From assembly GCA_021825865.1 (NCBI GenBank), contig JAKAFU010000021.1, forward strand, positions 1 to 33,495: a stretch of 33,495 bases of DNA, read 5' to 3'. The DNA comes from a bacterium. Its GTDB lineage: Bacteria > SZUA-79 > Acidulodesulfobacterales > Acidulodesulfobacteraceae. A program made the position numbers and the translations under genes. Positions 6,987-22,757 of the stretch are shown here, one piece after another. Numbering within the stretch: position 1 is the stretch's first letter; each line of letters opens with the position of its first letter. Below the pieces are notes generated by a model. It saw only the letters and a list, made by a program, of their open reading frames with translations, was not told the DNA's origin and made no database searches.

Positions 6987-7256
6987 TCATTTTCTAAGTT
7001 CAAGAGATTCTATTAAAGATTTATATCTAGCTTCATCCTTTCCTTTAATATAATCAAGAAGATGCCTTCTTCTCGAAACCATTTTTAAAAGTCCTCTTCT
7101 TGAGTGATGGTCTTTAGCAAACTTCTTAAAGTGTTCGGATAATAAATTAATGCGGTAAGTTAATAACGCAACCTGTACCTCTACAGAACCTGAATCGGAA
7201 TCATGCTGTTTAAATTTTCCGATTATTGACTGTTTTTCTTCTTTTGATATAGCCAT
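6987..7256 (-). CDS. rpsO: 30S ribosomal protein S15
   Basis: 89 residues, the usual S15 length. Characteristic sequences are [20 protein letters not shown] in the N-terminal part and [21 protein letters not shown] in the middle. S15 binds 16S rRNA early in assembly of the small subunit platform. A strong GGAGG ribosome binding site stands 11 bases before the ATG. The gene lies between truB and pnp; the 124-base AT-rich gap to truB could hold its own promoter (a TACAAT -10-like sequence is visible), but no -35 is convincing. Confidence 0.98.
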
Positions 7257-9211: not shown

Positions 9212-9619
9212 TTATGAATTATCGTCCGTTATTTTCTTATGAGCGTTTATTATTTTAAGAATCCTCGATGATTGTTCAATACCCTGGTCGTATTCAAAAC
9301 TCAAATCCGGTATTAATCTTAGTAAAACTTTAGAAAAAACTTCTTTTTTAATAAAATGTTTTGAACTTTTAAATCCGTTCATTGCCTTCTTAACTTCCTT
9401 CTCTATATAGGCAGAATATGTATTATCTTGAGGAGCATAAATATTTCCGTTCTTTATAGCAATAACACTAAAAAAAATTTTACAGTACCTCAAATCTTTC
9501 GATATCTCAGCCCTTAAAATTGTAACATTCTTAAGTCTGTCATCGTTAATTTTAAATTCTAATACTAATGAAACTTCGCGGGCAATCAATTCTGCAACCC
9601 TTTTATTTCTTTCTATCAT
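9212..9619 (-). CDS. rbfA: Ribosome-binding factor A
   Basis: 135 residues with the small KH-like fold typical of RbfA: an N-terminal helix (RNKRVAELIAREVSLVL), then DDRLKNVTILRAEISKDLRYCKIFFSV, and the closing PDLSFEYDQGIEQSSRI. It assists late 16S rRNA processing and 30S maturation. The ATG overlaps the infB stop codon by four bases (ATGA), a standard sign of coupled translation, and infB-rbfA is a highly conserved pair. Confidence 0.96.
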   Translation of the reverse strand: MIERNKRVAELIAREVSLVLEFKINDDRLKNVTILRAEISKDLRYCKIFFSVIAIKNGNIYAPQDNTYSAYIEKEVKKAMNGFKSSKHFIKKEVFSKVLLRLIPDLSFEYDQGIEQSSRILKIINAHKKITDDNS

Positions 9620-12105
9620 AATGTTTGTTTTATATATTCAATTTCATAAACTTCTATAACATCATTAATTTTAATATCATTAAAATTTTCAAGGGATATA
9701 CCGCATTCAAAATTTGACTGCACCTCTTTAACATCATCTTTAAATCTCTTTAAAGAATCGATATGTCCGCTGTATATTATAACATTATCTCTCAAGAGCC
9801 TGGCTCCTGCCGCTCTTTTGACAACCCCCGATGTTACCATACATCCGGCAACAGCGCCTATTTTTGGAACATTGAATACGCTTCTTACTTCAGCTTTTCC
9901 GACTACAATCTCTTTTTCTATAGGTGCGAGAAGACCTTCCATTGCATCTTTAATATCTTTTACCGCATCATAAATGATATTGTAATATCTTATCTCTATA
10001 TTTTCAGTTTCGCTTAAAGTATGAGCTTTAGGCTCAGGACGTACATTAAAAGCTATAACGATAGAACCCGTTGCTTTTGCAAGCATAATATCCGATTCGG
10101 TAATAGCGGAAGCGCCGCTATGAATTATTACAACCTTAACTTTATCTGTAGAGAGCTTATTAAAAGATTGAATGAGAGCTTCCATGGAACCGTACACATC
10201 ACTCTTGACAATTAATTTAAGTTCTTTGACGTCGCCCGCTTTTATTTGAGAATATAAATTCTCAAGGGTCATTTTGCTTGAAGACCTGTACTCGCTCTCT
10301 CTTCGTTTTAACTGCCTTTCCACGCTTATTTTTTTAGCTTCTTTTTCATCTTTTAAAACTATAAAATTGTCACCGGCTGACGGAACGCCTTCTAATCCGA
10401 ATATTTCCACAGGAGTGGAAGGACCGGCTTTCTCTAATTTGTTACCGTTATAGTCCATCATCGCTCTTACTTTGACGAAATATAAACCGCATACTGCGCT
10501 ATCGTTAATATGCAACGTTCCGCTCTGAACAAGCACTGTTGCAACAGGACCTCTTCCTTTATCGAGAGACGCTTCTACTACCGTTCCTCTTGCCGGCTTA
10601 TTGGGATTAGCTTTCAGTTCTAATATTTCCGCCTGAAGAATAATAAGCTCAAGAAGTTCTTTTAATCCCTGTCCCGTTTTTGCCGATACTAAGGAAAACA
10701 AAGTAGAACCGCCTAATTCTTCAGATACTAAACCGTATTCCATTAAACTGTTTTTAATTTTTTCCGGATTAGCTCCGGGTTTATCTATTTTATTTATTGC
10801 AACTATTATAGGAACATTAGCTGCTTTAGCATGATTAATAGCTTCGATAGTCTGAGGCATAACACCGTCATCGGCGGCTACTACAAGAATTACTATATCC
10901 GTTATACCTGCTCCTCTAGCCCGCATTTCGGTAAAAGCTTCATGTCCGGGAGTATCAAGGAAAACAACCATCGAGTCGTTCACTTTCACGTTATACGCAC
11001 CGATATGCTGGGTAATACCGCCTGCTTCATTGGTCGTAACATTTGTTTTTCTTATAGCATCCAGCAAAGAAGTCTTACCATGGTCAACATGACCCATAAC
11101 TGTTACTACCGGAGCTCTCGGAACCAAGGACTCTTCAGCATCGGGAGCTTCCTCAAGCGCTACGACTTCATCAAAACTGACATTTTCAACCGTATAGCCA
11201 TATTCGGAAGTTATAAGCGAAGCTGCATCTATATCTATGATCTGATTAATTGTAGCTATAATATCGACATCCAAAAGCTTTTTGATAACTTCGGAAGCTT
11301 TAACGCCTATTGCCTGAGAAAGTTCGTTGACAGTTATTCCATTGCTTATTTTAATTACTTTTTTTGATTGTTTTTTTTCTGTTATTAATGTTGAATTATA
11401 TTCGCTATGTTTATTAAAATCTTTATATGTCTTAAATCTTTTTCTGGGTTTTCTTGGAGCTACATATTCTTTCTCTTCAATTAGATCTATTATTTTCTCA
11501 TTTTTTTTAGGTTTAACTACATTCTGTTTTTTTACGGTATTTTTCTTTAATGATTTATTTTCCGGCGTATTTAATTCCGTAGCGTCCTTTAAACCATTGA
11601 GTAAACCCTTAACCGCATTCAATGGTAAAACGGCAGGCTTTTCTGTTTTTAAGTTCGCATTTGACGCTGAATTATCTTTATTTTCCTTTTGCAAATTTTC
11701 AGTGCTTATTGCGTTTCCGAATTTGTTGTTTTTGGCATTCAGGTCTGCTAATCCGCTTTGCTCTCCTTCTGTCTGTCTAATTAATGCGTTTGTTTCTTCA
11801 TCTTTATTTAATTTGTTTTTAGCAAATTCATGATTATTTGAATCATAAACAGAACTCTCTTTACTTTGCATATGAACATGAGAAACTTCTGCTTGAGATT
11901 CGTGAGACTGCGATCTTTCCGGCATAGCAGATGCCGGGTTTTCTCCGCTTGCGCCTTTCACGTTATCATTTTTAGAATTATCATCGCCGGCTAATTCAAC
12001 TTTGCTCAGTCTTCTCCTGATGACCCCCTTAGAAACTCTTCTTTCTTCAGTTTTTAAGGAATCTTGAACATTACTTTCATTTATTACTTCGTTATTATCT
12101 GCCAT
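9616..12105 (-). CDS. infB: Translation initiation factor IF-2
   Basis: 829 residues. The first 240 or so are polar, low-complexity and species-specific. They are followed by the IF2N domain (about 250-305) and the GTPase with G1 GHVDHGKT (338-345), G3 DTPGHE, G4 NKID and the effector sequence [11 protein letters not shown]. Domains II to IV follow, ending in the fMet-tRNA binding region. It places initiator tRNA on the 30S subunit and promotes subunit joining. It follows nusA with a gap of 3 bases and no strong Shine-Dalgarno sequence, so translation is probably coupled to nusA. Confidence 0.98.
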
Positions 12106-12108
12106 AGT

Positions 12109-13404
12109 TTAGTTAATTTCCCTGTTTATCCGTTCTTTAAGTTCTAAATCTGATTGCAGACGATTAAGTAAATCCTGAGCCGATTGAATAATTTTATCCG
12201 CTTTTTTAATATCGACGGATAAATCATTTGCTAACTTTTCAGAATCTGCGCCTGCTATAATTTCAGCGGTAGAATAACCGCTCTGATAAAGCGACCTTGC
12301 TATCATATCCCCCATGCCCGGAATATCCATAAGCATTTTATACCCTTCTATATCTTTCTTAGCAGACTTAGATTCAGAAACAACATCTATTTTATAGTCC
12401 GTTAATTTTGACGTAAGCCTCACATTTTGTCCCTGCCTTCCTATCGCAAGCGATAACTGGTCGTCGGGGACGATTACGGTAATAACCTTAGCCTGGCTAT
12501 TTAGCGAAACCTTTGACGGTTCGGCAGGGCTTAAAGCATTTGAAGCCAGCTTGGCAGGATTATCGGAATATTCAATTATATCTATTTTTTCTCCTCTTAA
12601 CTCATTGATAATGTTTTGTATTCTGAAACCTTTGATTCCAACGCACGCACCTATGGGGTCAACATCTCTGCTGCTGCTGTAAACCGCAACTTTAGATCTG
12701 AAGCCGGGAGCCCTTGCAACCTTGGCTATCTTCACTATTCCGTCATAAATTTCAGGGATTTCAGATTCAAAGAGTTTTATTAAAAATTCATCCGACGCTC
12801 TGGAAAGAATAAGCTTCGGACCTCCTTTTTCCATTTTGATATCCGACAATACCGCTCTTATTCTGTCATGAGATTTATATACCTCGCTAAATATTTGATC
12901 CTGTTTCGGTAAAACAGCTTCTGTTTTGCCGAGATCTACAATTATCACTGATTTTTCGACTTTTCTTACAAGACCGTTTACAATTTCGCCTTTTCTGAGA
13001 TTAAATTCGTCAAATATATTTTTATGTTCAACTTCTTTTATCTTTTGAAATATAATTTGTTTGGCAACCTGAGCTTCAATTCTTCCGTAAATATTTTTTT
13101 CTACTTTAAGACCGAGACTGTCTCCGATATGACTATCAGCATCGTATTTAATAGCGTCATTCAGTGTAATTTCCGTTTTGTCATTTTTAACTTCTTCAGC
13201 TACCTCTTTAAACATAAAAACTTCTATTTCTCCTGTTTCTTCAGTGTAATGAGCTTCTAAATCATAGCCGCTTCCGATGTTTCTGCGTGCAATTGCAAGT
13301 ATAGCCTGCTCAACAGCTTCTATAACTAAAGACCTGTCAATATTTTTATCTTTAGAGACCTGATCTATAACTAAAGAAAGATGCTCTGTATTAAGTTGCG
13401 CCAC
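12109..13404 (-). CDS. nusA: Transcription termination/antitermination factor NusA
   Basis: 431 residues. Order: N-terminal RNA-polymerase-binding domain (about 1-125), S1 domain (KGEIVNGLVRKVEKSVIIVDLG), two KH domains (VAVYSSSRDVDPIGACVGIKG; LSLAIGRQGQNVRLTSKLT) and a C-terminal helix-hairpin-helix segment (LMDIPGMGDMIARSLYQSGY). The C-terminus is shorter than in E. coli, where two acidic repeats are present. NusA modulates pausing, termination and antitermination. The start codon is GTG, supported by an AAGGAG 7 bases before it. NusA could feed back on the terminator-like hairpin in this operon's leader, as NusA is known to influence its own operon in E. coli. Confidence 0.97.
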   Translation of the reverse strand: MAQLNTEHLSLVIDQVSKDKNIDRSLVIEAVEQAILAIARRNIGSGYDLEAHYTEETGEIEVFMFKEVAEEVKNDKTEITLNDAIKYDADSHIGDSLGLKVEKNIYGRIEAQVAKQIIFQKIKEVEHKNIFDEFNLRKGEIVNGLVRKVEKSVIIVDLGKTEAVLPKQDQIFSEVYKSHDRIRAVLSDIKMEKGGPKLILSRASDEFLIKLFESEIPEIYDGIVKIAKVARAPGFRSKVAVYSSSRDVDPIGACVGIKGFRIQNIINELRGEKIDIIEYSDNPAKLASNALSPAEPSKVSLNSQAKVITVIVPDDQLSLAIGRQGQNVRLTSKLTDYKIDVVSESKSAKKDIEGYKMLMDIPGMGDMIARSLYQSGYSTAEIIAGADSEKLANDLSVDIKKADKIIQSAQDLLNRLQSDLELKERINREIN

Positions 13405-13446: not shown

Positions 13447-13995
13447 TTATTCTGCTATTAAATTTGCCTTCTTTATTTTTGAAAAAGATATAACATAATT
13501 TTCATCGTCTATTTCATCGTATATTTTTATATTCGCATTTATAATATTCGAACCGGCTTTGTTTAAGTCTGCATTGAGTGAATCTAATGATACTTTTGCA
13601 CCGGTTTGGTCTATTAAATCTGAAACATCAATAATTTTTCCTATAAAATTTAATCTTCCGTTAATTTTTTCGTTCAAAGATATTTTAGCGCGTTTATTTT
13701 TAAATCTTATATAGTCTTTTATTTTAAAAATTACTCTGTCTATACCCGGGGAAGACACTTCCAGATTATATTTAAAATCAATTAATTCTTTAATATCTAA
13801 AATCATGCTTAATTCTTTGGATATATCGGCAAGCTGAGATATGCTTATTCCGCCTTCCGCATCGGCATAAATTCTCAAAGCAACCCCTCTATTTTTTAGA
13901 GAAGAAACAAATAAAGATCCGACAATATAGCAGCCATAATATCTTGCAATATCTTCCGCAAGTTCGTCAATTTTTTTCAATAAATCATCATGCAT
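13447..13995 (-). CDS. rimP: Ribosome maturation factor RimP
   Basis: 182 residues, first gene of the nusA-infB operon as in most bacteria. The N-terminal alpha/beta domain contains the family sequence LRIYADAEGGISISQLADISKELSMILD, followed by YNLEVSSPGIDRVIF, and a C-terminal Sm-like barrel ends the protein. RimP assists 30S assembly. No Shine-Dalgarno sequence precedes the ATG, because the region just upstream is taken by a terminator-like hairpin and its U-tract that ends directly against the start codon. This arrangement is odd and is treated as a separate finding. Confidence 0.93.
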   Translation of the reverse strand: MHDDLLKKIDELAEDIARYYGCYIVGSLFVSSLKNRGVALRIYADAEGGISISQLADISKELSMILDIKELIDFKYNLEVSSPGIDRVIFKIKDYIRFKNKRAKISLNEKINGRLNFIGKIIDVSDLIDQTGAKVSLDSLNADLNKAGSNIINANIKIYDEIDDENYVISFSKIKKANLIAE

Positions 13996-14025
13996 AAATA
14001 AAAAAAGCGGGATAAACCCACTTTT
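13996..14025 (-). terminator. Intrinsic terminator hairpin between truA and rimP, possible attenuator
   Basis: On the minus strand AAAAGTGGG pairs with CCCGCTTTT (14003-14025), nine pairs including one G-U, around a 5-base loop. A T-rich tail (TTTATTT beyond the stem's own T's) follows. It would end the pil-truA transcript. It also lies inside the leader of the rimP operon, downstream of the promoter at 14062-14090, so it may act as an attenuator. The tail reaches the rimP start codon, leaving no room for a promoter after it. Confidence 0.75.
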
Positions 14026-14061
14026 AGATAAAACTTTAGTAATGGTTAACTCTATTTACTA

Positions 14062-14090
14062 ATTATAAATAAATAAATGATAAATATCAA
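14062..14090 (-). promoter_or_regulatory. Promoter of the rimP-nusA-infB operon
   Basis: On the minus strand the -35 is TTGATA (14085-14090), overlapping the truA stop codon, and the -10 is TATAAT (14062-14067), with a 17-base spacer. The predicted start is near 14055, giving a leader of about 60 bases that contains the terminator hairpin and ends at the rimP ATG. Both elements match the sigma-70 consensus closely; use of the promoter in vivo is inferred. Confidence 0.65.
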
Positions 14091-14872
14091 CAAAAAAATT
14101 TATGTTTATATTTAATTGAATATAAAAAAAGACCTTCCGGAGGAGCCTTAGTAATATTAGCAGCCGTTTTACCCGTATTAAGCAGATAATTTATACGTTC
14201 GATATTAATTTTGCCTAAGCCGCAAAGAACTATAGCCCCGACAATTCTTCTTACCATATGTCTTAAAAAACCGTCGCCGGTTATATAAATGTCAAATCCG
14301 TAATTTTTTTTTTGAATATTAATTTTAATTATTCTTCTGAAATAATCTTTGATACACTTTCTTTTATCCGATTTTGCAAAATTTATAAAGTTATAGTTAC
14401 CGACAAACATATTAGAAGCCTGATTCATTAAACTAAAATTAAGATTATCTTTGATATACCATGAATATTTTGACAAGAGCGCGCTTTTAAATCCGTTATT
14501 TAATTTATAAAGATATGTTTTAGATACGGTATCGAAAGTTGCGTGAAAGGAATTATGAACAAGCTCTACGCTTTTAACGGAGATATCATTATATGGCAGC
14601 ACCCCGTTTAAACTTGATTTTAATTTATCCAAATTAAGTAAAAAAGGCAATTTGAAATTAGCCACCTGATTTAATGCGTGAACCCCTGCGTCTGTCCTGC
14701 CTGAAACAAACAGCTCGGTGTCTGTTCCGGTTATTTTTTTAATTGCTTTTAAAACTTCTCCGGATATTGTTTTTAATTCTATATTGTTATTTTCTGCAGA
14801 AGAATTATTCTGGATTTGCCAGCCGTGATAATTTGAACCGTCATACTCTAATACTATAAGATAATTAATCAT
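14087..14872 (-). CDS. truA: tRNA pseudouridine(38-40) synthase
   Basis: 261 residues. The catalytic motif GRTDAGVHALNQVANF carries Asp61; LEYDGSNYHGWQIQ at the N-terminus and GDGFLRHMVRRIVGAIVLCGLG near the C-terminus are the other family signatures. TruA modifies U38, U39 and U40 in the anticodon stem of many tRNAs. The ATG overlaps the pilR stop codon by four bases (ATGA), so this tRNA-modification gene is translationally coupled to the pilus regulators and ends their operon, just before an intrinsic terminator. Confidence 0.96.
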   Translation of the reverse strand: MINYLIVLEYDGSNYHGWQIQNNSSAENNNIELKTISGEVLKAIKKITGTDTELFVSGRTDAGVHALNQVANFKLPFLLNLDKLKSSLNGVLPYNDISVKSVELVHNSFHATFDTVSKTYLYKLNNGFKSALLSKYSWYIKDNLNFSLMNQASNMFVGNYNFINFAKSDKRKCIKDYFRRIIKINIQKKNYGFDIYITGDGFLRHMVRRIVGAIVLCGLGKINIERINYLLNTGKTAANITKAPPEGLFLYSIKYKHKFFC

Positions 14873-16365
14873 CCTCTGTCTGCAATTTTAGAAACTATAT
14901 ACCTTAAAGACCTTGCGGACAATCCAAGTTCTTTTGCCAGCAATTTTTTAGATTGTTTTTTATCTTCCATTCTATCAATTATTATATTTTTTTCAATATC
15001 ATCTATAAATTTTTCTAAACTTATTTTATTTTTAGCATTAATTTCATTGAATACAAAAATAATTTTTTTTAAAATATCTTCATAGGCTGTTTCATTGATA
15101 TTTGAAATAATATTATTTGATTTTTTTTTTATGCTGTCCGGAAGGCAATTTTCCGTTATTTCTTCCGTTCTGCAATATATACATGCTCTTTCTATTAAAT
15201 TTTCCAATTCGCGAATGTTTCCCGGATAATCATAATCTGCCAAAATAGAAACTGCATTCTGGTCAATAAATGCAATATTTTTATTAAGTTTCTTTGAATA
15301 ATTGCCGATAAAATATGAGACTAGTAAAGGAATATCCTCTTTATGCTTTCTTAAGGGAGGCATCTCAATATGAATAGCATTAAGCCTGAAAAATAAATCC
15401 TCTCTGAATTCACCGCGCCTTATCGATTCGTTTAAATCTTTATTAGTTGCAGCAATAAATCTTATATCTAAAGAATATTCTTTATTGGAGCCTATTTTTC
15501 TAAAGGTTTTTTCCTGCAGAACTCTTAGCAGTTTTACCTGAACAGACATCGGCAAATCGCCTATCTCGTCAAGAAACAGCGTACCTTTATCTGCATATTC
15601 CAAAATGCCTTTTTTATCATAATTTGCACCGGTAAACGCTCCTTTAGCATAACCAAAAAGTTCGCTTTCAATAAGATTTTCAGGAATTGCGGATAGATTG
15701 ACCGGAACAAATTCGCCTGCATGTTTGCCGTCGGAGCGTTTATTAAAATATATATCGTGGGCAAGTTTTGCAGCAAGTTCTTTTCCGGTTCCCGATTCGC
15801 CCGTAATAAGCATTGTAGTAAAACTTTTTGCGAAAATATTTACTTCGGTTATAATTTTTGATATTGCCGCTGAATCCCCGACTATATTTCCTCTTAATCT
15901 GTCATTATCGGCTAATTTATTTTTTAAATTATTAAGTTCGTCATACACGGAAAAATATTCTAATGCTTTTTTAACGGTTATCTTAAATTCTTCAGTATCA
16001 AAAGGCTTTATAAGATAATCGAATACCCCTTCTTTTAAAGCATTCACGGCTGTTTTTACATCGGAATACGCAGTCATAAGTACGACCGGCAACAGATGAG
16101 CGGCGTAAGAATAATTTGTATTTTTAAGGCGTAAGAGCTTAAATTGTTCAAGAAAATCTATGCCGTTTATATCGGGCATCGAAATATCAGATATAATTAA
16201 ATTGAATATGCCGTCGGTATTATCGGCAATAAGTTTTAAGGCTTCCCTTGCCGATAATAAAGTCGTTACTTCATAACCCTCATATTTTAAAAGTATTTCC
16301 AAAGAATCTAAAACGGATTTTTCGTCGTCTATTATAAGAATTTTTTTACCGTTTTTCATGTTCAT
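14869..16365 (-). CDS. pilR: NtrC-class response regulator, PilR-like sigma-54 activator
   Basis: 498 residues. Receiver domain with acidic pocket IDDE near 12-15 and phosphoacceptor Asp60 (LIISDISMPD). AAA+ domain with Walker A GESGTGKE (189-196), canonical GAFTGA sigma-54 contact loop (242-247) and Walker B LFLDEIGD. C-terminal Fis-type helix-turn-helix near 470-495 (KKLLAKELGLSARSLRYIV). The receiver carries an insertion of about 14 residues after Asp60. It overlaps pilS by 20 bases. An in-frame ATG two codons later (16359) is an alternative start; neither has a clear Shine-Dalgarno sequence. PilR is assigned from the position after pilB, pilT, pilC and a membrane-bound kinase; it normally activates pilA, which is not in this window. 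Confidence 0.88.
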   Translation of the reverse strand: MNMKNGKKILIIDDEKSVLDSLEILLKYEGYEVTTLLSAREALKLIADNTDGIFNLIISDISMPDINGIDFLEQFKLLRLKNTNYSYAAHLLPVVLMTAYSDVKTAVNALKEGVFDYLIKPFDTEEFKITVKKALEYFSVYDELNNLKNKLADNDRLRGNIVGDSAAISKIITEVNIFAKSFTTMLITGESGTGKELAAKLAHDIYFNKRSDGKHAGEFVPVNLSAIPENLIESELFGYAKGAFTGANYDKKGILEYADKGTLFLDEIGDLPMSVQVKLLRVLQEKTFRKIGSNKEYSLDIRFIAATNKDLNESIRRGEFREDLFFRLNAIHIEMPPLRKHKEDIPLLVSYFIGNYSKKLNKNIAFIDQNAVSILADYDYPGNIRELENLIERACIYCRTEEITENCLPDSIKKKSNNIISNINETAYEDILKKIIFVFNEINAKNKISLEKFIDDIEKNIIIDRMEDKKQSKKLLAKELGLSARSLRYIVSKIADRG

Positions 16366-18217
16366 ATAATGGTAATGTAATATTAATTAACGTGCCTTTA
16401 TTTTTTTTGCTTTTTATACCGATATTTCCGTTAAAATTATCGATTATTGATTTGACTATTGAAAGCCCAAGACCGGTGCCGTTTTTTTTTGTGGTAAACA
16501 GCGGTTTAAATATATTTTTAATAACATCTTCATCTATGCCCTCTCCGTTATCGTAAAATTTCATTATTAGTAAATCGCTGCCCGCCTTCTTTTTGCTATT
16601 CTCATGTTCGCTTTCGCTATGTTCGTCCAGTCCCGCCGGAAACTTTCCTGAAATTTTCATGGCGCTTATTCTTATTTTACCTTTTGTATTATTACTTAAA
16701 TTATTTTTGTATCTTGATTTAACCGAAACGGCAGCATTTTCAATTATATTCACAAATATTTGATGCAGACGATATTTTTCAAAATACATATCAATTTTAT
16801 TATCTATTCTATTTATTATATTATAATCTTTCGATGACTCAAATTGAGAAATTATATATTCTGAAAAATCATGAAGATTAAAGTATTCAAAATTAGCCGA
16901 ATTGCCTATTGCGTTTGTGTTAAACGCAGCTGTTTTACTATTGACAAAGCCAAGAAAGTCTTTGACTAAAGACTCTAATCTTATAGTTTCTGTTTTTATT
17001 ATCCTCGTCAATTTGCTGAAATCAGCATTATCGGCTCCGGCATTCATTATGTTACAATTTATATTATCAGAATTTAAAATATCAATAGAAGTATTAATTG
17101 CAGACAATGGATTTCTTATTTCATGTGCAAGCCAACCTGCTAATTTTCCGGTAGCAATTAATCCTTCATTTATTTTTGAGTCAAGTTCTAATTCTTTTAC
17201 ATATGATATATCTTTAAAAAGCAGAATGCGCCGTCCCGGATTTTTATTGTCTTTAAATTCAGAATAGGAAAAACCTATAATTTTCCCATTATGTCTGACT
17301 TCAAAACGGATAGCGCCGACTTTGTCTTCATCGAAAATATCTAGCGGAAAGTCTTTAAATATATTATCTATTTTTAAATTAAAATGATAAAAACTGCCTG
17401 CTTTGCCGGCAATAGAGTCATTAAATACATCCTGACCTATTAAATCCATTCCTGCTCTGTTTATAAATACGATATTATTTTGAACATTTAAAACAATAAC
17501 GCCTTGCGTAAAACTATTGATAAGTTCTTTGTTAAATATTGCCGCATTTTTCATTACCTCGTCTATTTCTATTACTTTATTACTTAAGTATTTTATATTA
17601 TTGGAAAATTTATATAAAATCCAGCCGAATATTAATAAACCGAAAATATTTAAACTGAGCGCAAACAGCAATTTGTCAGGCTCATATAAATAATAGTAAT
17701 GGCCCGGTACATTGAAATAAAACTGCAAGTCGGCAATAAAACCGATAACTAAAGAAGAGGCTACCGTAAAAAAAATAATACCGGCGCCTAAAAAAATAAA
17801 TCCGGCTATTAAAACTAATAGATAATATAAGAAAATCAGATTGCTTTCCAATCCCCCGTTTAAAATTACGAAAACGGATATCAAAATAAAATCAAGAATA
17901 ATCTGTATTAGTCCAAACAGAGCAAAATATCTTTCTTTATTCCTTTTTTTAATATAATAATTTACAAATGAATATAAAACGGTAAGGAAAACTATAATAA
18001 CAACTAAAAAAATAAAAATTTCATATTCTGTATAAAAAAATAAATCTGAGCCGTGATTAATTAATATGAGCAGGTAGGTTAAAACCGCCAAGGAAATTGC
18101 GGTAAATCTGAATACTATAACAAATTTCAGCTTTTCATAAATGTTACTGCCTTCAATATGAAAATTTCGTTTCAGGCCTTTATTTGCCATACCTAAAAAA
18201 TCATCCTTTAATTGCAT
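16346..18217 (-). CDS. pilS: Membrane sensor histidine kinase, PilS-like
   Basis: 623 residues. About six membrane helices lie between residues 33 and 202, then a PAS-like domain (about 225-340; GVIVLNVQNNIVFINRAGMDLIG). The dimerisation domain follows with the phosphoacceptor His365 in LAHEIRNPLSAIN. The ATPase domain has N box Asn494, G1 DNGEG (556-560) and G2 GTGLG (580-584). A polar insertion of about 25 residues (around 522-547) sits inside the ATPase domain. The six-helix plus PAS layout and the location between pilC and pilR fit PilS, which controls pilin expression through PilR. The start overlaps the end of pilC by 17 bases. Confidence 0.88.
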   Translation of the reverse strand: MQLKDDFLGMANKGLKRNFHIEGSNIYEKLKFVIVFRFTAISLAVLTYLLILINHGSDLFFYTEYEIFIFLVVIIVFLTVLYSFVNYYIKKRNKERYFALFGLIQIILDFILISVFVILNGGLESNLIFLYYLLVLIAGFIFLGAGIIFFTVASSLVIGFIADLQFYFNVPGHYYYLYEPDKLLFALSLNIFGLLIFGWILYKFSNNIKYLSNKVIEIDEVMKNAAIFNKELINSFTQGVIVLNVQNNIVFINRAGMDLIGQDVFNDSIAGKAGSFYHFNLKIDNIFKDFPLDIFDEDKVGAIRFEVRHNGKIIGFSYSEFKDNKNPGRRILLFKDISYVKELELDSKINEGLIATGKLAGWLAHEIRNPLSAINTSIDILNSDNINCNIMNAGADNADFSKLTRIIKTETIRLESLVKDFLGFVNSKTAAFNTNAIGNSANFEYFNLHDFSEYIISQFESSKDYNIINRIDNKIDMYFEKYRLHQIFVNIIENAAVSVKSRYKNNLSNNTKGKIRISAMKISGKFPAGLDEHSESEHENSKKKAGSDLLIMKFYDNGEGIDEDVIKNIFKPLFTTKKNGTGLGLSIVKSIIDNFNGNIGIKSKKNKGTLINITLPLYEHEKR

Positions 18218-19427
18218 TGCCTAGATTAAATATAGGCAAATACATAGCCACAACCAAAACGCCTACTACAATTCCGAGAAAGACTATAAGAGCAGGTTCC
18301 ATCATTGAAGTCAGGTTAGTTACCGCATTGTCCACCTCTTCGTCATAGTAGTCGGCAACTTTAGCCAACATTGCATCAAGGTTTCCTGTTTTTTCTCCAA
18401 CCATTATCATCTGAATTACAAGAGGAGGAAATAATCCTGTTTTGTTAATCGCGACAGAAAGCGGAGCTCCGGATGCCACATCTTCTTTTGCTTTAATTAA
18501 AGATTCTTCTATAATTTTATTTCCGCTTATTTTAGAGACTATGCCTAATGCCGATAAAATAGGAACGCCGCTTTCAATCATTGTTGAAAGGGTTCGGGAA
18601 AACCTTGCGATAGAAACTTTTTTTAACAAAAGTCCCATCAGAGGTATCTTAAGTATCAAACGGTCTATATTTCGTCTTCCGTTTTCTTTTTTATAATATG
18701 ATTTGACTAAAAAAATTATTAAACCGATAGCGACAATTATATACAATATATACGATTTAACGAAATCGCTGAAATTAATCACCTCCTGAGTAAGAGCCGG
18801 CAATTTTGCGCCTACGCTTGCAAAAAGGTTTGCGAATACAGGTATAACAAATGTTAATAATATAACTATAACTCCGAATGCAACTGACAGAACTATTATA
18901 GGATATATCATTGCACCCTTCACTTTCCTTTTAAGTTTAAGGGTTTTTTCGAAATATACCGATAATCGTCTAAAAACTTTATCTAAAACGCCTCCTTTTT
19001 CTCCCGCATCGACAAGATTTATATATAAATCGTTAAATACACGCGGAAATTTTCTGAAACTGTCGGATAAGCTTCCGCCGCTTTCTATGTTTTCTTTAAT
19101 CTTAGATAGAATTCCTTTTAAATTTTTATTTTTTTGCTGTTCTATCATTATAGAGAGACCTTGCAAGATAGGAACTCCCGAATCTACTAATGAAGAAAAC
19201 TGCCTTGTAAATATTATTAAGTCGTCATCGCTGATTTTGGTTTTAGAACTTATTTCCTTTGATGCAGTAAGCTGCATACTCAGAAATTCGCTTTTTTTAT
19301 CAACATTAATAGGATAGATATTGTTTTTATGAAGCTCATCGATAACAATTTCCGGACTCGTTGCGTCAATCTGACCGGTTATGTATTCCCCTGTTTTCTT
19401 TCTGCCTTTCCATTGATAAATAGGCAT
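18201..19427 (-). CDS. pilC: Type IV pilus inner-membrane platform protein PilC
   Basis: 408 residues, the normal PilC length. The N-terminal MPIYQWKGRKKTGEYITG is typical. Two T2SSF domains follow, each containing the FxRxLSxxxxxGVPI-type sequence (FTRQFSSLVDSGVPILQGL; FSRTLSTMIESGVPILSAL). Membrane helices lie near 170-195, 220-242 and 375-402. PilC is the membrane platform turned by the PilB and PilT motors. A purine-rich AAGGGG precedes the ATG. It is separated from pilT by 104 bases and overlaps pilS. Confidence 0.96.
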   Translation of the reverse strand: MPIYQWKGRKKTGEYITGQIDATSPEIVIDELHKNNIYPINVDKKSEFLSMQLTASKEISSKTKISDDDLIIFTRQFSSLVDSGVPILQGLSIMIEQQKNKNLKGILSKIKENIESGGSLSDSFRKFPRVFNDLYINLVDAGEKGGVLDKVFRRLSVYFEKTLKLKRKVKGAMIYPIIVLSVAFGVIVILLTFVIPVFANLFASVGAKLPALTQEVINFSDFVKSYILYIIVAIGLIIFLVKSYYKKENGRRNIDRLILKIPLMGLLLKKVSIARFSRTLSTMIESGVPILSALGIVSKISGNKIIEESLIKAKEDVASGAPLSVAINKTGLFPPLVIQMIMVGEKTGNLDAMLAKVADYYDEEVDNAVTNLTSMMEPALIVFLGIVVGVLVVAMYLPIFNLGNAIKG

Positions 19428-19531
19428 ATAATGACCACCCCTTTATAATTTTATAATATATTTATATTATAAAATAACATATTATAATTATATAATCAAT
19501 CAAATATTATTTTATAGGCACCTGTTCGCCG

Positions 19532-20749
19532 TTATAATTTATCAAAATCAATTCCCGAAAATAATACGTCGTTTGTTTTATTAAAAGAACCGTCGTTTTG
19601 ATTTTGCTGCTGCGTTCCCTTTGTTCCTGCGTTATTATTAATATTTGAAGAAGTATTATTATTTAAAGAACCGCCCTTAGACATCAAACCGGAATTAATA
19701 TTCTGTTTTAATTCATCAACATCAGAAGACCGCGAATATGCTTCAGTTTCGCTTATTATTTTATTATTAACCAACGAAGCAAGTGCCTGATTCAGCGTTT
19801 GCATACCATATTTTTCTTGTCCCAGCTGAAGTTGAGAATATATTTGATGAATTTTATTTTCTCTGATTAAATTTCTTATAGCTGCATTAGGTATCATAAT
19901 TTCAGCCGCCATAATCCTGCCAAGATTATCTATTTTCGGAATAAGGGTTTGAGACATAACGCCCACTAAGGATAGCGATAATGACGACCTGACCTGCGAC
20001 TGCTGGTCTGATGGAAATATATCTATGATTCTAGAAATAGTCTGCACGGCAGAATTGGTATGCAGGGTTCCGAAAGTTAAATGTCCCGTTTCGGCTATAG
20101 TTAATGCCGCTTCCATTGTTTCCATATCACGTATTTCGCCTATTAGAACTACATCAGGGTCTTCCCTTAAAATATGTCTTAAACTTTCTATGAAGCTATA
20201 TGAATCCTGACCTACTTCCCTCTGATTAACCAAACATGATTTATGCTGAAAAATATATTCTATAGGGTCTTCAATAGTAATGATATGTTCATGTCTTGTG
20301 GCATTTATTGAATCTATCATCGCTGCCAGAGAAGTAGTTTTGCCGGAACCGGTAGGACCGGTTACTAATATTAAACCTCTTGGAGATTTTATGATTTCTT
20401 TTATTATAGGAGGCAAACCTAGAGCGTCTATTGAAGGTATGGCATGCGGAATAACTCTGAATGCGCCTGCAATCGACCCTCTGTCAAAATATAGATTGCC
20501 TCTGAAACGCGATACCCCTTTCTGTGAAAATGAAAAATCAAGTTCGTGTGTCTCTTCAAATTTTTTCTTCTGCGCATCTGTTATGACGCTATAGCAAAGA
20601 CCTTGAGTATCGGAAGGAGACAACGACGGAAAATTAAGAGGGGCAAGGGAACCTCTAAGTCTTATTACCGGAGGCGTACCTGCCGCTATATGTAAATCTG
20701 ACGCCCCCATATCCACGGTAGTTTTTAATAAATCTGCTATTGATGACAT
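19532..20749 (-). CDS. pilT: Type IV pilus retraction ATPase PilT
   Basis: 405 residues. Walker A GPTGSGKT (131-138), Asp box EDPIEYIF, Walker B DVVLIGEIRD, His box GHLTFGTLHTN, and the PilT-specific AIRNLIRE motif (290-297), which separates it from PilB-type motors. PilT disassembles the pilus and drives twitching motility. After about residue 354 the protein has a tail rich in Asn, Gln, Gly and Ser that is not part of the conserved motor. An AAAGGA lies 7 bases before the ATG. It follows pilB after 181 bases of very AT-rich, partly repetitive DNA. Confidence 0.97.
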   Translation of the reverse strand: MSSIADLLKTTVDMGASDLHIAAGTPPVIRLRGSLAPLNFPSLSPSDTQGLCYSVITDAQKKKFEETHELDFSFSQKGVSRFRGNLYFDRGSIAGAFRVIPHAIPSIDALGLPPIIKEIIKSPRGLILVTGPTGSGKTTSLAAMIDSINATRHEHIITIEDPIEYIFQHKSCLVNQREVGQDSYSFIESLRHILREDPDVVLIGEIRDMETMEAALTIAETGHLTFGTLHTNSAVQTISRIIDIFPSDQQSQVRSSLSLSLVGVMSQTLIPKIDNLGRIMAAEIMIPNAAIRNLIRENKIHQIYSQLQLGQEKYGMQTLNQALASLVNNKIISETEAYSRSSDVDELKQNINSGLMSKGGSLNNNTSSNINNNAGTKGTQQQNQNDGSFNKTNDVLFSGIDFDKL

Positions 20750-20762
20750 TTTCTTATCCTTT

Positions 20763-20803
20763 AATAAATTAATAAATAAAAATAATAAATTAATAAATAA
20801 AAA
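20763..20803. repeat. AT-only tandem repeat in the pilB-pilT spacer
   Basis: Two copies of a 20-base sequence (AATAAATTAATAAATAAAAA) at 20763-20782 and 20784-20803 form a 21-base period. A related pair of shorter A/T tracts ending in AATAGTAT follows near 20815 and 20865. This is probably slippage-prone spacer DNA; it could bend and influence pilT transcription, but nothing more can be claimed. Confidence 0.6.
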
Positions 20804-20930
20804 ATTTAAAATAAAATAAATAGTATTAAATCATATAACCAAATAAACTAATAAGAATTTAAAATAAATAGTATCAGACGGTATTATATCATACAATTAT
20901 ACGATTATGTTATTATATTATATTATTATG

Positions 20931-22757
20931 TCATATAATTATATTATTAGTTGTTTTAAGATATTGCAGTATTTCTTCCATAGATGTTATACCAGAGATA
21001 AATTTTGCTTTTGCCGATTCGCTTAAAGTAATCATTCCATGGTTTTTAACGGCTATATTTTCAATTTCAAATTCATTTGCATTCTTATAAATTAAATCTT
21101 TAATGTCATCAGTTACCGTAAGCACTTCATATATTGCAATCCTGCCCTTATATCCGGTGTTCATACAGGCAGGGCATCCTTTAGCTTTATATAATACATT
21201 GCGTTTTATTATGTCGTCTTCAAACCCGAAACCCTTGAGCATCCGAGCGTCGGGTATATAAGGTTCTTTGCATTCAGTGCATAATTTTCTAACAAGCCTT
21301 TGCGCTATTACGAGATTAAGGCTTGATGCCACGAGAAACGGTTCAACGCCGACGTTAATCAAACGGGAAATCGTAGACGCGGCATTATTGGTATGAATAG
21401 TTGAAAGAACTAAATGACCTGTTAAAGCAGCCTTTATAGCAATTTCCGCAGTTTCTAAATCTCTTATCTCCCCTACCATTATTATATCAGGGTCCTGCCT
21501 CAAAAAAGAACGCAGCGCCTGAGCAAATGTCAAACCTATATCCTCATTAATCTGCACCTGGTTAATACCGTAAATATTATATTCTACAGGATCCTCCGCC
21601 GTAGAAATATTTACTGTTTTTTTGTTTAAATCGCTCAGGGCACTATAAAGAGTAGTTGTTTTTCCAGAACCGGTCGGTCCGGTAACTAAAATCATCCCGT
21701 ACGGTTTATGGATAGCATCCTGAAAATCGTTAAGCTGATTATCGGAGAATCCTAATTTTTTCATATCAAGCTGAAGAGAAGACTTGTCTAGTATTCTCAT
21801 AACTATTTTCTCTCCATACAGTATCGGAAGACAAGATACCCTTATATCAACTTCTTTACTTTCTACCCTGACTTTTATTCTTCCGTCCTGAGGCATTCTT
21901 CTTTCGGCTATGTCCATTTGAGACATAATTTTAATTCTTGAACTTATAGCATTTTTTAGTTGTCCCGGAACTGTCATGATTTCATTAAGTTTTCCGTCTA
22001 TCCTGAATCGCACGCGTATATTATTTTCATACGGTTCAAAATGCAAATCGCTTGCGCCTCTTCTAATTCCGTCCGATATAACTTTATTGACAAATTGGAT
22101 TATAGGTTTTTCGGAAGAAGACCTTTGTAATTCTGAAATATCAATTTCTTCATTAGCGTCCTCAATAGAAATGGAATCAATGTAGTCTTTGTGTTCCGTC
22201 AAAATACTGGAAGCATTATAATAGGTCGACAGAGCTTGATTTATTTCTGATTCCGCAGCAAGCACCACTTCAACATTAAGTCCGGTATAAAATTTGATAT
22301 CTTCGAGCACGGTGACTTTTGTAGGGTCAGAAACTGCCAGATATAAAGTATTCCCTTGTCTTTTATACGGAACCACATGATATTTTAATGCAGTATCCGG
22401 CGGAATTAATTTGATAACATCGGGCGGTATAGCCGAGGAAAGAAGATTGACGGTAGCCGCGCCGAACTCTTTTGATAAAAACGACACAAGCTCTGAATCT
22501 TTGACAAAACCCAGCTTTGAAAGCTGCTTACCAATACTGCCTCCTGTTTTTTCCTGTTCTTCAAGCGCCATTTCTAATTGATTCGCGGTAATAATATTAT
22601 TTTTAACAAGTATTTCTCCAAGTTTAGCATCTTGTAATTGTTGACCTTTTTTGATTCCGTTTCTTATCTTTTCCTGTATTAATAAAGCATTATTTATATC
22701 TTCTTTTTTTACACTGCCGTGTTTTACTAAAATTTCGCCGAGTTTTTGAGATTCCAT
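20931..22757 (-). CDS. pilB: Type IV pilus assembly ATPase PilB
   Basis: 608 residues. The N-terminal MshEN-type region begins with two similar copies of a roughly 40-residue unit, each starting KLGEILVK (residues 5 and 45). The motor has Walker A GPTGSGKT (360-367), Asp box AEDPVEYNI, Walker B DIIMVGEIRD, His box GHLVLSTIHTN and the zinc-binding cysteines 493, 496, 528 and 531, which are typical of PilB/GspE extension motors. MshEN domains can bind c-di-GMP in related ATPases; whether this one does is unknown. No Shine-Dalgarno sequence is evident before the ATG. It follows aroE after 134 bases, so it may have its own promoter. Confidence 0.96.
   Translation of the reverse strand: MESQKLGEILVKHGSVKKEDINNALLIQEKIRNGIKKGQQLQDAKLGEILVKNNIITANQLEMALEEQEKTGGSIGKQLSKLGFVKDSELVSFLSKEFGAATVNLLSSAIPPDVIKLIPPDTALKYHVVPYKRQGNTLYLAVSDPTKVTVLEDIKFYTGLNVEVVLAAESEINQALSTYYNASSILTEHKDYIDSISIEDANEEIDISELQRSSSEKPIIQFVNKVISDGIRRGASDLHFEPYENNIRVRFRIDGKLNEIMTVPGQLKNAISSRIKIMSQMDIAERRMPQDGRIKVRVESKEVDIRVSCLPILYGEKIVMRILDKSSLQLDMKKLGFSDNQLNDFQDAIHKPYGMILVTGPTGSGKTTTLYSALSDLNKKTVNISTAEDPVEYNIYGINQVQINEDIGLTFAQALRSFLRQDPDIIMVGEIRDLETAEIAIKAALTGHLVLSTIHTNNAASTISRLINVGVEPFLVASSLNLVIAQRLVRKLCTECKEPYIPDARMLKGFGFEDDIIKRNVLYKAKGCPACMNTGYKGRIAIYEVLTVTDDIKDLIYKNANEFEIENIAVKNHGMITLSESAKAKFISGITSMEEILQYLKTTNNIII

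Follow-up and report, generated by a model that had tools for sequence, protein, structure and literature searches.

The short leader of the rimP-nusA-infB operon in an uncultured bacterium from acid-mine settings, related to Ca. Acididesulfobacter (phylum Ca. Acidulodesulfobacteriota), contains a hairpin that belongs to the rimP-leader family and probably attenuates transcription in response to NusA, a reading to which we assign a probability of roughly 0.75. This reading is built on the anatomy of the leader, its conservation, its membership of a described family and the linkage of the hairpin to nusA. The leader lies between truA and rimP on the minus strand of the window, by which we mean the whole 33,495-nt stretch of DNA that was analyzed. 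The features concerned are as follows.

14087 to 14872, minus strand: truA (PF01416), the upstream neighbor, whose stop codon lies within the -35 hexamer
14062 to 14090, minus strand: sigma-70-type promoter TTGATA-N17-TATAAT, recognized by sequence, with the 17-nt spacing and both hexamers identical in 28/28 family genomes
14026 to 14061, minus strand: remaining leader, A/T-rich, unconserved (spacer identity 0.48) and, on folding, without a stable structure
14003 to 14025, minus strand: predicted terminator hairpin AAAAGTGGG-TTTAT-CCCGCTTTT with core GUGGG/CCCGC, the rimP-leader element; sole covariance-model match in window and genome
13996 to 14006, minus strand: U tract TTTTTTTATTT, adjoining the rimP start, its first four T also paired in the stem
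13447 to 13995, minus strand: rimP (30S maturation factor; PF02576, 3e-16, and PF17384), first gene of the operon
12109 to 13404, minus strand: nusA (PF08529, 9e-29, and KH_5), the proposed source of feedback
9616 to 12105, minus strand: infB (IF2; Pfam IF-2 and GTP_EFTU)
9212 to 9619, minus strand: rbfA (PF02033)

The first-pass annotation had described a promoter overlapping the truA stop codon and a nine-pair hairpin whose U tract ends at the rimP ATG, and both descriptions hold, with the hairpin at 14025-14003 and its tail reaching 13996. The -35 hexamer TTGATA occupies 14090-14085 and encloses the TGA stop of truA (14089-14087); the -10 hexamer TATAAT occupies 14067-14062, and the site was the top promoter-like site (11/12) across the 20 kb scanned. 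Judging from the promoter position, we infer that transcription starts near 14055. About 36 nt of A/T-rich leader separates the promoter from the hairpin, which as RNA reads AAAAGUGGG-UUUAU-CCCGCUUUU, followed by the U tract and then the rimP ATG. Its nine pairs include four G-C and one U-G, with a folding energy of -10.7 kcal/mol, and TTTATTT stands directly 5' of the ATG (13995), placing the stem end 7 nt from the start codon. The gene order 3' of the leader is rimP, nusA, infB, rbfA, a DHH-family gene, truB, an rpsO-like open reading frame and pnp. Another nine-pair hairpin, TCGAGAAGAAGGCATCTTCTTGA (7076-7054, minus strand), was seen within the 89-amino-acid rpsO-like frame (6987-7256), 5' of pnp.

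Chance was assessed by dinucleotide-shuffling the 109-nt stretch 10,000 times; an equal promoter arose in 0.4% of the shuffles and an equal nine-pair terminator in none. Scanning 20 kb for generic terminators gave 14 hits versus 12.5 in shuffles, which is no excess. The deciding evidence is conservation within the family, which confirmed that the element is real. The comparison of leaders in related genomes proposed in the first-pass annotation was carried out on the window genome and 27 same-genus or same-family relatives with a rimP match (28 in all), and the hairpin was conserved in every one. TTGATA-N17-TATAAT, GTGGG-loop-CCC(G/A)C, the U tract and the ATG were present in 28/28, and the distance from CCCRC to the ATG stayed at 11 to 13 nt, while the spacer between promoter and hairpin was anywhere between 36 and 66 nt long. 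Comparing distinct rows in pairs gave a mean identity of 0.89 across hairpin, tail and ATG and 0.83 across the promoter, with the spacer at 0.48 and the truA end at 0.56.

The position of the promoter bears on whether the hairpin simply ends the pil-truA transcript, as had also been suggested, with the rimP promoter firing through it. In the window, pilB, pilT, pilC, a sensor kinase and a sigma-54 response regulator precede truA on the same strand (14869-22757), and the later genes of this run overlap slightly. With truA upstream on the same strand, the hairpin would also block truA read-through. However, the rimP promoter stands between truA and the hairpin in 28/28 genomes, and inspection by eye of the family leaders for a second promoter or a leaderless start 3' of the hairpin found no consistent hexamers. 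Operon transcripts must therefore cross the hairpin. Moreover, other families have the motif before rimP irrespective of the upstream gene, and several genomes have it before nusA beside divergent genes, as described below. These observations weaken the terminator reading, which we regard as improbable.

Conservation of the hairpin-to-ATG distance raises another possibility, in which the hairpin and U tract occupy the rimP ribosome landing zone and throttle translation, possibly through S1 on the U tract. This is consistent with the 11- to 13-nt interval kept in 28 genomes despite a variable spacer, and with the absence of a Shine-Dalgarno sequence before rimP, which the first-pass annotation had pointed out and which extends to 28/28 family genomes. 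That absence is not special, however, since approximately 9 of the 23 window genes examined likewise have none. Outside this family the hairpin is often located farther from the start, and the conserved part has the anatomy of a terminator, that is, a stem and a U tract. We therefore consider control of translation alone quite unlikely, although an effect on translation may supplement attenuation in this family, given the fixed distance.

The window leader contains no ATG, and no frame is conserved among the family leaders compared. The weak upstream AACC/GGTT pairing had been judged too short to call an antiterminator; no conserved antiterminator was indeed found, with the correction that this pairing is lost altogether in the congeners L006 and L007. 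Several sibling genera (L009-L028, for example L014 and L024) have an A-U hairpin, UAUAUAAAAAA...UUUUUUAUAUA, immediately 5' of the terminator hairpin. This A-U hairpin was rejected as an antiterminator, being compatible with the terminator and missing in the genus of the window. With no conserved leader peptide or antiterminator, there is no need to invoke coupling to translation or a fold switched by a ligand. An Rfam scan of the window gave nothing reaching the gathering score.

In order to place the hairpin among known elements, we surveyed the rimP upstream regions of 80 further genomes, nearly all from different families. A terminator lay within 230 nt before rimP in 59/80 (8.3 expected from shuffles), and GGG..CCC..TTTT was found in 34/80 (2.15 expected); the other 21 had no such terminator before rimP, and the element is accordingly not universal. 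Among 52 stems chosen by a rule fixing only GG..CC, pairing and a T tract, the 5' arm read UGGG in 37, facing CCCA in 29 and CCCG in 8, and CGGG/CCCG was found in only 3. A set of 39 leaders was then aligned; odd stems had been removed by hand, so that this set is selected for the GGG/CCC motif. Its core pairs were near-constant, flanking A-U pairs swapped to G-C, and the c-g position inside GGG/CCC varied among CG, UA, UG and others. The near-invariance of the GUGGG arm opposite a partner alternating between A and G is a pattern hinting at reading by sequence.

A covariance model, R1, was built from those 39 rimP leaders, among which the family of the window is not represented. The window hairpin was its only match in the window (37.6 bits, E 6e-6) and its only match in the 1.9-Mb genome (E 3.5e-4); a pattern search of the same genome also returned the motif as a single match. 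Generic terminators in other genomes sometimes score close to this model, so an R1 match alone is no proof and a position before nusA or rimP is needed. As the single match of a model derived from other families, in the expected position, the hairpin is by sequence a member of the general rimP-leader terminator family.

Which product of the operon the hairpin serves was addressed with loci in which nusA comes first. We analyzed 1 kb upstream of nusA in 25 genomes without a detected rimP and in 2 with rimP elsewhere (27 loci). A sense-strand model match (E < 0.05) was present within approximately 170 nt of nusA in 15/27, and none was found at E < 0.05 farther upstream in the 1 kb examined; the other 12 loci had no sense-strand match at this threshold. 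A stricter GTGG motif search was positive in 12/27. At the nusA-first loci the gap between hairpin and nusA was too small to hold rimP. In the two genomes with rimP apart from nusA, neither gene was preceded by a motif-type hairpin. The upstream open frame is divergent in four loci (L178, L184, L192 and L194), and there the hairpin cannot terminate that gene. Searched genome-wide, the hairpin before nusA was the only match at E ≤ 0.05 in one genome (G150) and the best one in another (G177); three other nusA-first genomes had no match at E ≤ 0.05.

When the GTDB species collection was scanned for the exact motif, 62 matches were obtained; 45 of them precede a RimP-like frame, while 9 directly precede nusA without an intervening rimP. 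The contigs with these nine include Planctomycetota, Chloroflexi/Anaerolineales, Lentisphaeria and Pelagibacteraceae records. Of the other eight, one (L111) follows a proS-like frame at the end of its contig, and several resemble ordinary 3' terminators or repeats. In three Clostridia/Oscillospiraceae contigs (L132, L162 and L170), AGCARCTTCGAGTGGGCGTTGCCCACTTTTTT was observed outside the rimP and nusA context, in what looks like a repeated element, and pairing of GCAAC...GTTGC there might replace the hairpin. As a correlation across 27 loci and 9 contigs, taken without a tree, these data indicate that the element follows nusA rather than rimP. In the literature searched, coverage of which was incomplete, we found no statement of this linkage.

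Because the hairpin tracks nusA and not rimP, NusA is favored as the sensed product. An attenuator sensing RimP, IF2 or the state of the ribosome instead is, in our view, also quite unlikely. In its favor, rimP is the first gene, and RimP was considered as an alternative in earlier work (PMC2965389); against it, the hairpin precedes nusA where rimP is not adjacent, an argument that bears less on IF2, since infB usually follows nusA.

In the NusA-responsive mechanism that we propose, with start site, termination and NusA dependence predicted from the leader and its relatives, polymerase would start near 14055 at the conserved promoter and make a leader of approximately 45 to 55 nt. The GUGGG/CCCGC hairpin would fold and polymerase would pause at the U tract, just 5' of the rimP ATG. 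When NusA is abundant, pause and hairpin would be stabilized and most transcripts would end there, damping rimP-nusA-infB-rbfA; when NusA is scarce, polymerase would read through. On this anatomy the rimP start codon would be transcribed after the decision point, and coupling to rimP translation could not control it. Since NusA stimulates approximately 75% of Bacillus subtilis terminators (PMC12288461), sensitivity to it would not by itself set this hairpin apart. The first-pass proposal of an attenuator with NusA feedback thus gains support from the comparative evidence, family membership, the nusA linkage and the B. subtilis precedent.

These results extend the rimP-leader attenuator to Ca. 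Acidulodesulfobacteriota, and the nusA-linkage data bear on the question left in 2010 of which operon product the hairpin serves. As the hairpin tracks nusA, feedback by NusA is now the foremost hypothesis for bacteria in general, one that can be tested on a short template. A near-invariant GUGGG with a free A/G partner also makes reading of the terminator sequence by NusA, or by polymerase with NusA, testable. More tentatively, and at somewhat less than even odds, GUGGG/CCCRC may be a terminator that senses NusA throughout bacteria, with its 5' arm recognized by sequence and with nusA carrying it wherever no rimP precedes, in which case the "rimP-leader" would really be a nusA-leader. If so, the nusA-leader would perhaps be among the most widely shared protein-responsive attenuators.

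The first-pass annotation had presented the element as unknown, but its kind was described in 2010 by Naville and Gautheret (Genome Biol 11:R97, PMC2965389), in whose survey the rimP-leader was the most ubiquitous attenuator; the phylum of the window host was named only after that survey. The published motif has the stem GGGc...gCCC and a general form without antiterminator, and its authors favored recognition of the motif by a protein, with NusA the probable candidate. The window agrees with this general form in having a short predicted intrinsic terminator with a U stretch 5' of the first gene of rimP-nusA-infB, a GGG(...)CCC core present as GUGGG/CCCGC, a distance of 7 nt from the gene start (published range, 4 to 130 nt), an unconserved spacer with no larger conserved element or antiterminator, and a motif specific to this operon in its own genome. 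It differs in having U and U in place of the inner c-g pair, a U-G wobble at the second pair (CCCGC) and a U tract touching the ATG. The inner pair is variable, and lower case in the published motif, and is therefore not decisive for membership.

Rfam RF01770 is the Gammaproteobacteria form of the rimP leader, approximately 102 nt long, with a tandem upstream terminator/antiterminator that the window does not have. The operon position is the same, and the downstream GGGC..GCCC hairpin and U tract of RF01770 correspond to the window element; the 102-nt model gave no gathering match in the window and none at E ≤ 10, versus 102 bits for the Escherichia coli control. In E. coli K-12 (L173), the U tract of the terminator GGGCTTTAGGCCC was seen to enter an out-of-frame ATG approximately 17 nt before the annotated rimP start. 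Closer in size is the rimP-operon leader of Streptococcus agalactiae, in which RNA-seq placed leader termination 31 nt after the start and NusA feedback was proposed (PMC4448216); that leader, like the one described here from sequence, is very short, and it belongs to a different phylum. In B. subtilis, NusA expression is controlled by NusA-stimulated termination in its own leader (reviewed in PMC12288461). The window shares with that attenuator a predicted terminator in the 5' leader of the nusA operon and the presence of nusA within the operon to be controlled, and the increase in termination by NusA, demonstrated in B. subtilis, would be expected here.
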